Source: Zymomonas mobilis subsp. pomaceae ATCC 29192 (GTDB lineage: Bacteria > Pseudomonadota > Alphaproteobacteria > Sphingomonadales > Sphingomonadaceae). From it: a stretch of DNA of 64,000 nt. The position numbers and the translations under genes are program-made. Of the stretch, positions 41,633-45,864 are shown piece after piece (the first letter of the stretch is position 1; the number at the start of each line of letters is the position of its first letter). The notes under the pieces were generated by a model. That model did not search any database. It was given only the letters and a program-made list of their open reading frames with translations, and had not been told where the DNA came from. The stretch spans positions 1,681,001 to 1,745,000 of the forward strand of contig NC_015709.1 of NCBI RefSeq assembly GCF_000218875.1, written 5' to 3'.

Positions 41633-43375
41633 TTATTTGGCTTTCTTTTTAGAAAGGCGTTTCTTTTCCGCCCTGTCTTGCCGTTCTTCTGGTGTCGCAT
41701 GGCGATGCTGAAGCCATGTCATCTGTGCCAAGGAAACAAGGTTATTAAAGATATAATATACCTGTAAACCTGCGGCTAAAGGCGCCATGAAAATCACCGA
41801 AACCAACGGCAAGAAACTCATGATTTGCTGTTGCGTAGGATCAAGTTGCTGTGGACTTGCCCGAAACTGGAGCCACATCGTAATCCCCAGAATAATAGGC
41901 AGTACCCCAATCATCAAGAAATGCGGTGGCGTGAAAGGCAACAATCCAAAGAGATTGAAGGGGGTTAAAGGATCGGGTGCCGATAAATCTTTGATCCAAC
42001 CGATAAAGGGTTGATGGCGGCTTTCAATCGTTACCAACAAGGTTTTATAAAGCGCAATAAAAATGGGAAACTGAATAAACATCGGAAGACAACCCGCAAA
42101 AGGATTGACCTTTTCCTTCTGATATAAGGTAACCAGTTCCTGACGCATTTTTGCATCATCATTTTTATAACGTTCGCGTACAGCCTGCATTTTAGGCTGT
42201 AAACGCCGCATGGAAGCCATCGAAGCATATTGCTTATTGGCAATAGGAAAGATCAAGGCACGGATGGTAAACACCATCAAAATAATGGCTAGCCCATAGT
42301 TACCAACATGCAAGAATAACCAATCGAGATAATAGAAAAATACTTTCTCGATGATAGCAAACCAACCCCAGTCAATCGCTTTATCAAAATGCGGCAAACG
42401 CAGATGATCACGATAGCGGTCAAGAATGCGCACTTCCTTGGCCCCCGCGAATACGTCAACACTCAGACTGGCGGTTTTTCCTGCGGGGACAACCACAGGG
42501 GCAACTGTGAAATCAGCCTGATAATGCTGGTTAGCGCCGCTACGGAAATTAGTATCAATCGCCATATTTTGATTATGGGGCGCTAAAGCGGATAACCAAT
42601 ATTTATCCGAAAAACCGATCCAGCCGCCTTGCGTGTTATTTTGAAGTCCATTGCCATTGGCTTTATCGAGATCGGAAAAAGCAATATGATAGTTAACCGA
42701 ACCATTAAACACACCGATTGGGCCCGTGTGTAAAGTCCATGAACTGGGGGTTTTAAAGACGCCTTGGCGATTGGTCAGCACATAGGGACGGATAATAATC
42801 GGATTATTGCTGTGGTTAATCACACTTTCTGTTGCATTGAACATATAGTCATGATCGACCGATAAAGTGAGGCGGAAAATCTGACCTTGATGGTTATCCC
42901 AATAAAAATTAACCGGATGTTCCGAGGTCAATTTATCGCTATCGGCCTTCCAAAGGCTATCAGCCCCCGGCAAAGTAACATTTTCACCGCTCCAGCCAAA
43001 ACCCGTAAACCAAGCATCTTGGGTGCCGGCGGGTGAAAAAAGACGAACGGCCGGTGAATTACGGGCCAAGGTTTCACGATGCCGAATCAAGGTCAGATCA
43101 TCGAGCCTTAAGCCTTTTAAATTAATAGAACCTTCAAGGCTTGCGGTTGAAATGGGCAGACGAGGGGTTTCTGCCAGCACCTGATTAACAGGTCTTAAAA
43201 CAGTATCGGCTGCGACATCAGGTGCCAATTCCGATTTTGGTTGCGGTTTTGCCTGATGGGTTGGTGGGGGTGTGGTGGGTAACCAATACTTCGTAATGAA
43301 GCTCCAACCAAACAACACAACTGCCGAGAGAATCGTAACAATAATCAGGTTACGCTGCTGGTGCTGATCACCCAT
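41633..43375 (-). CDS. yidC: Membrane protein insertase YidC
   Basis: Inserts proteins into the inner membrane with or without SecYEG. The 580-residue protein has an N-terminal anchor (about 11-28), a large periplasmic beta-sandwich (about 60-350), and C-terminal membrane helices with the conserved insertase core: FFYYLDWLFLHVGNYGLAIIL, the positively charged cytoplasmic loop, LPMFIQFPIFIALYKTL. The C-terminus is Lys/Arg rich (KKRLSKKKAK), which can contact ribosomes. yidD lies 17 bp upstream and engB 6 bp downstream. Confidence 0.97.
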   Translation of the reverse strand: MGDQHQQRNLIIVTILSAVVLFGWSFITKYWLPTTPPPTHQAKPQPKSELAPDVAADTVLRPVNQVLAETPRLPISTASLEGSINLKGLRLDDLTLIRHRETLARNSPAVRLFSPAGTQDAWFTGFGWSGENVTLPGADSLWKADSDKLTSEHPVNFYWDNHQGQIFRLTLSVDHDYMFNATESVINHSNNPIIIRPYVLTNRQGVFKTPSSWTLHTGPIGVFNGSVNYHIAFSDLDKANGNGLQNNTQGGWIGFSDKYWLSALAPHNQNMAIDTNFRSGANQHYQADFTVAPVVVPAGKTASLSVDVFAGAKEVRILDRYRDHLRLPHFDKAIDWGWFAIIEKVFFYYLDWLFLHVGNYGLAIILMVFTIRALIFPIANKQYASMASMRRLQPKMQAVRERYKNDDAKMRQELVTLYQKEKVNPFAGCLPMFIQFPIFIALYKTLLVTIESRHQPFIGWIKDLSAPDPLTPFNLFGLLPFTPPHFLMIGVLPIILGITMWLQFRASPQQLDPTQQQIMSFLPLVSVIFMAPLAAGLQVYYIFNNLVSLAQMTWLQHRHATPEERQDRAEKKRLSKKKAK

Positions 43376-43392
43376 GTCTTTGAATTACCCTT

Positions 43393-43605
43393 TCAAGGCA
43401 CCGGGTCATGACCGCAACCTCCCCAAGGATGGCAACGGGCCAGACGTTTTATAGCAAGCCAACTTCCTTTAATCGCCCCATAACGTCGCCATGCTGTGAT
43501 AGCATAAGCCGAACAGCTAGGCGTAAAACGACAGGAAGGCGGCATAAAGCGGGACGGGCCCCATTGCCACAGGCGCGCTAAAAAAACGAGCGTATGGACG
43601 ATCAT
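43393..43605 (-). CDS. yidD: Membrane protein insertion efficiency factor YidD
   Basis: Small amphipathic protein of 70 residues assisting YidC. The Cys-rich family core [19 protein letters not shown] and the ending [14 protein letters not shown] are complete. The ATG overlaps the rnpA stop by four bases (ATGA), so translation is coupled to rnpA. Confidence 0.95.
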
Positions 43606-44066
43606 CGTCGCATACGCGCTAAAGCTTTTGACAACTGACGCATAAGATCGTCATAATTGCCATTATAGGCAGCACGCCGACCAATCAATATATGATCAGC
43701 GCCTGCAATACCACCCTTAGGCAGCAGCGACCGAACTAAAGCCCGAAAGCGCCGCTTGATCCGGTTGCGAACAACCGCATTACCCGTTTTTTTTGTTACC
43801 GTATAACCAACGCGCATGGCAGAGTTGCCATCATTGCGGGCATAAACCAACAGAATAAAACCGGGCATCGGCACGCGTTTTCCGCGATTTGCCGCAAGAA
43901 AATCAGCGCGGCGCTTAAGAACGCTTATGCAGACAGTTTCTTGCGGCTGCGAGCCCGACGGGCTGCCAGAATTTTGCGGCCACCCGGGGTCGCAGACCGG
44001 GTACGAAATCCGTGCCGGCGTTTGCGCACGAGATTGCTCGGCTGAAAGGTGCGCTTCATCGCTCAT
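43602..44066 (-). CDS. rnpA: RNase P protein component RnpA; unusual start overlapping rpmH
   Basis: Protein subunit of RNase P, which matures tRNA 5' ends. The conserved RNR motif is in [20 protein letters not shown]. The canonical part begins near [16 protein letters not shown]. Between the rpmH stop and that part there is no ATG, GTG, TTG or CTG in frame. The only ATG is at 44064-44066, seven bases before the rpmH ATG and in another frame, giving a 154-residue protein that wholly contains rpmH. An ATA overlapping the rpmH stop (43926-43928) is the alternative. yidD overlaps by four bases at the 3' end. Confidence 0.85.
43925..44059 (-). CDS. rpmH: 50S ribosomal protein L34
   Basis: L34 is a basic 44-residue protein of the large subunit. 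The frame reads [19 protein letters not shown], then [19 protein letters not shown] and RKKLSA, an essentially complete match to the family. It is too short for many gene callers. GAGGA at 44067-44071 lies seven bases before the ATG, ideal spacing. It is first in the rpmH-rnpA-yidD-yidC-engB operon, with the promoter presumably in the 283-bp gap upstream. Confidence 0.97.
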
Positions 44067-44071
44067 TCCTC
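44067..44071 (-). promoter_or_regulatory. Shared Shine-Dalgarno for rpmH (and possibly rnpA)
   Basis: The GAGGA sequence is spaced seven bases from the rpmH ATG and zero bases from the upstream ATG of the rnpA frame. Spacing favours rpmH initiation strongly and argues against efficient initiation at 44066. Confidence 0.7.
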
Positions 44072-44349
44072 AACAATATTTCTTGATTGTTAAAAAAGGC
44101 CGCCGAACGCACGGCAGCCATATCTAAAGGGCGTGAATAGGGAATAAAGAACGAAAAGTCAACGCTGCTTAAAAAGCAATTTCAAGCATCTAGCTTGCCT
44201 TTCTAGAAAATAAAAGAATATCTTGTTTTTAAGTTATTTTAGCCAATAATAAAATATTTCTTTTAGCTTCTATCTTTTTTGTGCCATGAACAGCCTCATG
44301 ATCATTAGAATAACAAAATTATAATATTAGTAACAAGGCATGTATTATT

Positions 44350-45864
44350 ATGGTTACTTGTGTTGCCAGTCTCGCTTTTTTAGGGCTGGAAGCACGTCCT
44401 ATTGAAGTTCAGGTACAACTTTCTTCGGGGGTGCCTGCTTTTACCATTGTAGGATTACCCGATAAAGCCGTTTCAGAGAGTCGCGAAAGGGTAAGATCAG
44501 CCCTTTCGGCTATTGGGCTGGCACTTCCGCCCAAGCGAATTACGGTGAATCTCTCCCCAGCTGATCTTCCCAAGGAAGGTTCTCATTACGATTTGCCGAT
44601 TGCATTGGGGCTATTGGGGGCTATGGGCGTCTTGGATAACGAAAGCTTAAGTCAATATCTGGTACTGGGGGAATTAGGATTAGATGGGCGTCTTATGGCC
44701 TCACCGGGGGCTTTACCGGCAGCCATCCATGCGTCATCTTGTCATTTGGGGTTAATCTGTGCTCAACTTCTGGGGGCAGAAGCCGCATGGTCAGATCTTG
44801 ATGAGATTATAGCGGCACCTGATCTTTTGATGCTGATTCAGCATTTAAAAGGTAAAATGACCTTACCTCAGCCACAACGAAGCCCCTTTAATGATCCTAT
44901 TTCCGGGCCAGATTTATCAGCTGTAAAAGGACAGGAACAGGCTAGACGCGCTTTGGAAATAGCTGCCGCCGGAGGGCATAATATGCTGATGTGCGGCCCG
45001 CCTGGTGCTGGTAAATCGCTACTTGCCGCTTGTTTACCGAGTATCCTGCCGCCCTTGGATGCGCGTGAAGCCCTAGAAGTTTCTATGATCGCTTCAGTCG
45101 CCGGTATGCTTGATCAGGGGCGTCTTATTCAACAGCGCCCTTTTCGTGCACCTCACCATTCTGCCTCTATGGCGGCCTTAGTGGGCGGCGGGTATCATAT
45201 AAAACCGGGTGAAGTAAGTTTAGCCCATTTGGGTGTGTTGTTTTTAGATGAGTTGCCGGAATTTAAAAGGCCAGCCTTGGACTCGCTTAGACAGCCTTTG
45301 GAAAGTGGTGAAGTTTCTATCGCCCGTGCTAATGGTCATGTTCATTTTCCGGCCAGAGTGCAACTTATTGCCGCGATGAATCCTTGTCGTTGTGGTCATC
45401 TTGACGATGCTGCTTTAGCCTGTTCACGTGCACCGAAATGCGCTGTAGAATATCAAAATCGTATTTCCGGCCCTTTACTTGATCGTATCGACATTCACCT
45501 TGATATGCCGCCGGTAGGGGCAAGAGAATTGTTGTTACCGGCTGGTGAAAATTCAGCCGCGGTCAAACAACGCGTCATAGCTGCGCGTGCCCTTCAACAG
45601 GCCCGTTATAAATCTTATAAAAATGGCACGATCCGTTGCAATGCAGAAGCCGATGGTGCGCTTATTGAAAAGCTGGCCCCTATGGATGATGCGGGTCAAA
45701 AGCTTTTGATAGAAGCCGTTGAAAAAATGCATCTTTCAGCGCGCAGCTATTATCGCCTTTTAAAAATAGCCCGTACTATTGCCGATATGGCAGGATCAGA
45801 AAATCTTACACGCCTCCATATAGCGGAAGCGCTCAGTTATCGTCGTCGTCTTCCTGTTGCATAA
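44350..45864 (+). CDS. comM: ComM/YifB family Mg-chelatase-like AAA+ ATPase
   Basis: AAA+ ATPase related to ComM, a helicase that promotes branch migration during integration of transforming DNA. The N-terminal Lon-like domain has VGLPDKAVSESRERVRSAL and NLSPADLPKEGSHYDL; GPPGAGKSLLA is Walker A, LFLDELPEF is Walker B, and PCRCGHLDD marks a zinc-like Cys loop. The C-terminal domain ends LTRLHIAEALSYRRR. Length is 504 residues. It is divergent from the rpmH operon. Confidence 0.95.
   Translation: MVTCVASLAFLGLEARPIEVQVQLSSGVPAFTIVGLPDKAVSESRERVRSALSAIGLALPPKRITVNLSPADLPKEGSHYDLPIALGLLGAMGVLDNESLSQYLVLGELGLDGRLMASPGALPAAIHASSCHLGLICAQLLGAEAAWSDLDEIIAAPDLLMLIQHLKGKMTLPQPQRSPFNDPISGPDLSAVKGQEQARRALEIAAAGGHNMLMCGPPGAGKSLLAACLPSILPPLDAREALEVSMIASVAGMLDQGRLIQQRPFRAPHHSASMAALVGGGYHIKPGEVSLAHLGVLFLDELPEFKRPALDSLRQPLESGEVSIARANGHVHFPARVQLIAAMNPCRCGHLDDAALACSRAPKCAVEYQNRISGPLLDRIDIHLDMPPVGARELLLPAGENSAAVKQRVIAARALQQARYKSYKNGTIRCNAEADGALIEKLAPMDDAGQKLLIEAVEKMHLSARSYYRLLKIARTIADMAGSENLTRLHIAEALSYRRRLPVA

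Follow-up and report, generated by a model that had tools for sequence, protein, structure and literature searches.

An ordinary bacterial rnpA has its own start codon after rpmH. Nesting of the Thermus type is marked by the absence of a canonical start between rpmH and the conserved RnpA core. To our knowledge, bacteria very rarely have one essential gene lying wholly within another in a different frame, and the nested rnpA-rpmH genes of Thermus were reportedly described by Feltens et al. in 2003. A 2022 paper gave the Thermus rnpA-rpmH site as 5'-AUGGAUG-3' with one Shine-Dalgarno (SD) element, named Thermus as the one bacterial example of a shared start site of this type described so far, and presented the ambiguous start sites (AUGUG/GUGUG) of pqiA and tamA in E. 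coli (PMC9841429). The ordinary operon order was given in another source as rpmH-rnpA-yidD-yidC (PMC10941002). In the accessible text of the open-licence PMC literature, including PMC9841429, PMC10941002 and PMC7566282, no report of nesting outside Thermus was found, sphingomonads and Zymomonas included. According to a Z. mobilis multi-omics study, ribosome profiling (GSE139939) and shotgun proteomics (PXD016962) data of strain ZM4 were deposited, and neither rpmH nor L34 was present in its main text (PMC7566282).

The rpmH-rnpA locus of Zymomonas mobilis

We analyzed a stretch of 64,000 nt from Z. mobilis subsp. pomaceae ATCC 29192 (hereafter the window, meaning this DNA at its full length). 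Its minus strand carried rpmH, rnpA, yidD and yidC in the usual order, and upstream of rpmH lay a divergent Mg-chelatase-family gene, which we take to be comM-like. The features of the locus were as follows.

43393..43605, minus strand: yidD, sharing 4 nt with the end of rnpA and in its usual place in the gene order
43602..44066, minus strand: long rnpA frame of 154 codons (154 aa), bounded by ATG 44066..44064 and a stop that ends at 43602
43611..43922, minus strand: conserved RnpA domain (PF00825), residues 49-152, E 7e-20 (Pfam)
44059..43925, minus strand: rpmH, ribosomal protein L34, 44 aa, nested (PF00468, E 1e-20)
43926..43928, minus strand: ATA codon, the rival non-canonical start, overlapping the rpmH stop TAA (43927..43925)
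44064..44066, minus strand: ATG(-7), the proposed rnpA start, 7 nt 5' of the rpmH ATG and out of frame with it
44067..44071, minus strand: GAGGA, a single Shine-Dalgarno-like element abutting ATG(-7) and well placed for rpmH

The whole of rpmH, whose product was spanned over its full length by PF00468 (Pfam), lay within the rnpA frame, which is the -1 frame of rpmH. A sequence-only reading of the window had reported this out-of-frame containment, and its coordinates were correct. The long frame was also open in the strain's own genome (2,061,413 bases, 3 contigs). Between the rpmH stop and the conserved core, the rnpA frame held no ATG, GTG, TTG or CTG in the window, and the codons there, beginning with the ATA at the rpmH stop (ATA AGC GTT CTT AAG), bore out the same statement of that reading. 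Because an in-frame TGA starts 13 nt 5' of the rpmH start, ATG 44066 was the sole start 5' of the core. It had been called the sole ATG of the frame, which held for the region upstream of the core, where it was the only ATG, GTG, TTG or CTG, but not for the core itself, where additional in-frame ATGs are located (e.g., in VPMPGF); starting at those would cost the core its conserved beginning. The GAGGA element (44071..44067) adjoined ATG 44066 with no spacer and, as had also been noted, was well spaced for rpmH, with 8 nt separating its final G from the rpmH ATG. The sequence marks of Thermus-type nesting were found together in the window: rpmH inside the rnpA frame, an rnpA ATG a few nucleotides before that of rpmH with a single shared SD, and no canonical start before the core.

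Based on these features and on the comparisons below, we consider it very probable that RnpA is translated from ATG(-7), with rpmH enclosed in rnpA in another frame. Against this start stands its poor spacing from the SD, which directly adjoins it.

Comparison within the genus

The genus comparison comprised the window and three other genomes, one per species. In all three other species, the ATG 7 nt before rpmH, the GAGGA element and the open frame of 154 codons were as in the window. The sequence-only reading had left two options, a Thermus-like nested frame or a start at the ATA codon (43926-43928) with translation by coupling. In the rival reading considered here, RnpA would be made by termination-reinitiation from this ATA or another near-cognate codon near the rpmH stop, and the long frame would be open by accident. 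The ATA overlaps the rpmH stop as a coupled start would. However, the codon was GTA in the three other species, and their sequence from the rpmH end up to the core held no CTG, ATT, ATC, ATA or ACG, so an ATA start is not common to the genus; ATA as a conserved rnpA start was ruled out by the GTA in these sister species. A comparison of the locus across relatives had been proposed as a check: in the three other species the long frame was kept and a start at 43928 was not conserved. A canonical local start in close relatives, which had been named as evidence against the nested frame, was not found in the three other species.

Synonymous codon shuffling of rpmH closed the -1 frame in 77-82% of trials across the four species of the genus. 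When the same procedure was applied to 84 family loci without ATG(-7), 42 closed frames were expected and 13 were seen; since the shuffle over-predicts closed frames in this control set, its expectation is useful only for comparing sets. The family-wide pattern described below is a stronger argument against chance than the shuffling. A frame open by chance, in which the rnpA sequence contains an error or its short start escaped detection, is the most improbable of the readings considered here: the -1 frame of rpmH is often open, with no stop in 69 of 82 loci without ATG(-7), but all four species of the genus agree, as do all 204 family loci with ATG(-7).

Survey of the family

From the family Sphingomonadaceae, 320 loci were gathered (30, 80, 100 of 163 further matched genomes, 30, and 80 of the remaining 118), the fetched loci being taken mainly by rank order. 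Nine were dropped, either for lack of a match to the rpmH motif or because the locus was truncated, and 25 were duplicates, giving 286 distinct rpmH-rnpA loci with the window included. ATG(-7) was present in 204/286. The collected set is biased toward RnpAs resembling the query, and related sequences in it are not independent. In a sample drawn over 96 genera, it was present in 49 of the 123 usable loci. As judged by these comparisons, nesting of rpmH in rnpA extends beyond the window and is conserved in those family loci that carry ATG(-7).

In every one of the 204 ATG(-7) loci, rnpA lay in the -1 frame of rpmH and was open from ATG(-7), which supports the Thermus-like nested frame of the two options left by the sequence-only reading. 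Measured from the rpmH stop to one fixed residue of the core, the spacing took 22 values between 20 and 143 nt in this set, all of them 2 mod 3. Spacer stops in the rnpA frame were absent (0/2626 codons), while the other two frames had 132 and 32 of 2626; loci without ATG(-7) had 30/2508 in the rnpA frame. Similarly, a -1-frame stop within rpmH occurred in 0/204 ATG(-7) loci versus 13/82 loci without ATG(-7). Among the latter 82, rnpA fell in frames 0/1/2 of rpmH in 10/22/50 loci, and a local NTG was present in 66. In 40/84 loci without ATG(-7), rnpA also lay in the -1 frame and was open; frame-keeping is not exclusive to ATG(-7) loci, and perhaps it persists in the others by descent.

No ATG, GTG or TTG followed the rpmH stop in 112/204 ATG(-7) loci, and the remaining 92 also had a local NTG. 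In all 112 loci without a local start, ATG(-7) was the sole NTG from itself to the core, and in 47 of them it was the sole NTG of the entire open frame. A CTG, ATT/ATC/ATA or ACG was present in the stretch in 103 of these 112, as a start at ATA or a near-cognate codon would allow, but nine had none of these codons. Reinitiation near the rpmH stop also leaves unexplained the frame kept over 22 distances, the absence of stops, and the position-3 bias described below, and together with the GTA of the sister species this makes it an improbable source of RnpA. Overall, the sequence comparison favors the nested frame over an ATA start.

A -1 slippage near the end of rpmH, giving an L34-RnpA fusion with ATG(-7) incidental, would likewise account for the open -1 frame and its kept phase. 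Slippage needs no ATG(-7), yet among the 119 loci whose rnpA was open in the -1 frame and lacked a local NTG, the codon at -7 was ATG in 112, TTG in 4, and another codon in only 3, and we regard slippage as highly improbable. The four TTG loci (L149, L153, L155, L204) kept the frame without a local start and are possible cases of nested rnpA with a TTG start. Five loci (L067, L082, L118, L122, L168) had GTG at -7 (GTGCCGC before the rpmH ATG) along with local starts and long spacers, and in L168 a stop within rpmH closed the frame; these loci possibly represent a transitional state.

Spacer substitutions and possible turnover of starts

Initiation at ATG(-7) would make the spacer between rpmH and the core coding sequence. 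Substitutions were counted by codon position between nearest pairs of equal-length spacers. In the ATG(-7) set, the part of the spacer that precedes any local start had 45/33/75 substitutions at positions 1/2/3 (75/153 at position 3; 38 pairs; p = 4e-5), while the whole spacer of the control set had 26/24/28 (28/78; 11 pairs; p = 0.36), and the position-3 bias was limited to the ATG(-7) set. A small set of loci without any local start gave 21/9/27 (27/57; p = 0.019), and the same test on an earlier, smaller set gave 14/6/14 (14/34), which was not significant.

On an rnpA tree, the ATG(-7) set showed at least 65 changes of distance and no change of frame, and the remaining loci showed 55 distance and 20 frame changes; because tree support was weak and two independent pairs were available, these figures are a count and not a formal test. 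The tree was a quick one of 282 nt, with only 2 independent contrasts on supported branches and hence no power. In nine loci, AAAGAC or AGAGAC after GAGGC replaced ATG(-7), and all nine had a GTG six codons before the core reference residue, as would look like a swap of one start for the other. A tenth AGAGAC locus, L131, had a different context and no canonical start. Seven loci without ATG(-7) (L123, L131, L145, L156, L163, L172 and L186) had no ATG, GTG or TTG from the nearest in-frame stop to the core; at these loci a non-canonical codon, for example ATC, CTG or ACG, is a candidate rnpA start. Non-canonical starts may therefore exist in the family, which fits the reading of RnpA from a non-canonical codon near the rpmH stop.

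Start signals, leader elements and protein product

Across the 204 ATG(-7) loci, positions -11 to -8 showed a GGA consensus rich in purines. At least 4 nt matched the SD exactly in 113 of these loci but not in the other 91, which counts against the proposed start. In 201/204 loci an A followed ATG(-7), and AUGANNNAUG was found in 201/204. An SD-like 4-mer preceded the local start in 13 of the 92 ATG(-7) loci that had one and in 7 of the 66 others, rates near background (11% and 8%), so such 4-mers cannot separate used from unused local starts.

Two further elements were noted in the rpmH leader of the window.

44098..44119, minus strand: terminator-like hairpin before the rpmH start, with an 8 bp stem (GC) and a U run
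44134..44162, minus strand: promoter-like TTGACT-17 nt-TATTCA upstream of the hairpin, read by eye and not listed by the scan

Similar leader hairpins were present in part of the relatives. At E <= -8, they were found in 69/202 and 32/81 family loci, versus 4 and 1 after mononucleotide shuffling, and the hairpin is a possible attenuator of L34. A TTGAC-type match occurred in 200/202 and 75/75 family loci, using a loose expression that had no shuffle control. For 43300-44600, Rfam gave no match at a gathering score.

The long RnpA would carry about 47 additional N-terminal residues, almost all of them encoded by rpmH sequence in another frame, ahead of the RNase P protein. As estimated from length, the long form would be about 17 kDa and a short form about 12 kDa. 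In the AlphaFold2 model of the 154-residue protein, the extension had low confidence (block means of 44-50 over residues 1-40), while the model was confident from about residue 50, and the best PDB structural matches of the confident fold were solved RNase P proteins. This difference in model confidence suggests that the extension is probably a disordered, tolerated tail rather than a functional one.

Occurrence outside the family

In a class sample of 289 genomes, the rpmH pattern matched 100, and ATG(-7) was found in 3, two of the family and one other. In a phylum sample, 7/299 genomes matched ATG(-7), 6 of them from the family. Both surveys are partial, the rpmH pattern having matched only 100/289 genomes in the class, with no such denominator for the phylum. 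The two hits outside the family were read by eye and set aside as coincidences: in one, the frame was closed within rpmH and no rnpA was recognized behind it, and in the other, the frame was open but rnpA lay in the frame of rpmH. No nested rpmH/rnpA frame leading into rnpA was found outside the family among the sampled class and phylum genomes, which suggests, at the level of sequence, that the arrangement here may have arisen independently of Thermus. An ATG with the Thermus spacing, ATG(-4), was found in 0/196 genomes of the order.

Proposed mechanism and comparison with known systems

With RnpA translated from ATG(-7), one ribosome-binding site would feed two competing AUGs. The SD would favor initiation at rpmH, and infrequent starts at AUG(-7) would yield the longer RnpA at a low rate. 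The need for RNase P protein is much smaller than that for L34, and low-rate use of AUG(-7) would fit this difference. Both starts may be in use in the 92/204 loci with an additional local NTG. We would give even chances to a broader proposal, in which much of this large family sets its L34:RnpA ratio by means of two out-of-frame AUGs, 7 nt apart, competing for one ribosome-binding site. In the same proposal, nested rpmH/rnpA would have originated here a second time, independently, and repeated losses or gains would have exchanged ATG(-7) for a local start or the reverse.

A second nested case, with many species and with relatives that lack nesting, would allow the study of how nesting arises and decays. 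It would also open to study how one SD serves two AUGs and whether their competition sets the L34:RnpA ratio. Furthermore, annotations that assumed a local start may place the rnpA start wrongly in genomes of the family.

Gene order and gene families here were the same as in the ordinary rpmH-rnpA-yidD-yidC operon, and an rnpA start of its own, as in the ordinary operon, was possible in 66/82 loci without ATG(-7). Like pqiA (one SD) and tamA (two SDs), as presented in PMC9841429, the locus has two starts in different frames; the pqiA and tamA starts overlap directly, whereas here 7 nt separate the two starts and the upstream one opens the rnpA frame itself. The comparison with Thermus, drawn from the same source, is closer. 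The AUGs of Thermus are 4 nt apart (AUGGAUG) rather than 7 nt, and the SD-like element abuts the first AUG here. The lineage also differs, as this locus belongs to the Alphaproteobacteria, which are unrelated to Thermus, and expression has reportedly been demonstrated for Thermus, while that of the nested frame here is predicted from sequence comparison. Nevertheless, an offset of 4 nt in Thermus and one of 7 nt in the family give the long frame the same phase relative to rpmH (-1), and Thermus rnpA-rpmH and the family locus have in common the full nesting of rpmH, AUGs only a few nucleotides apart, and one SD.
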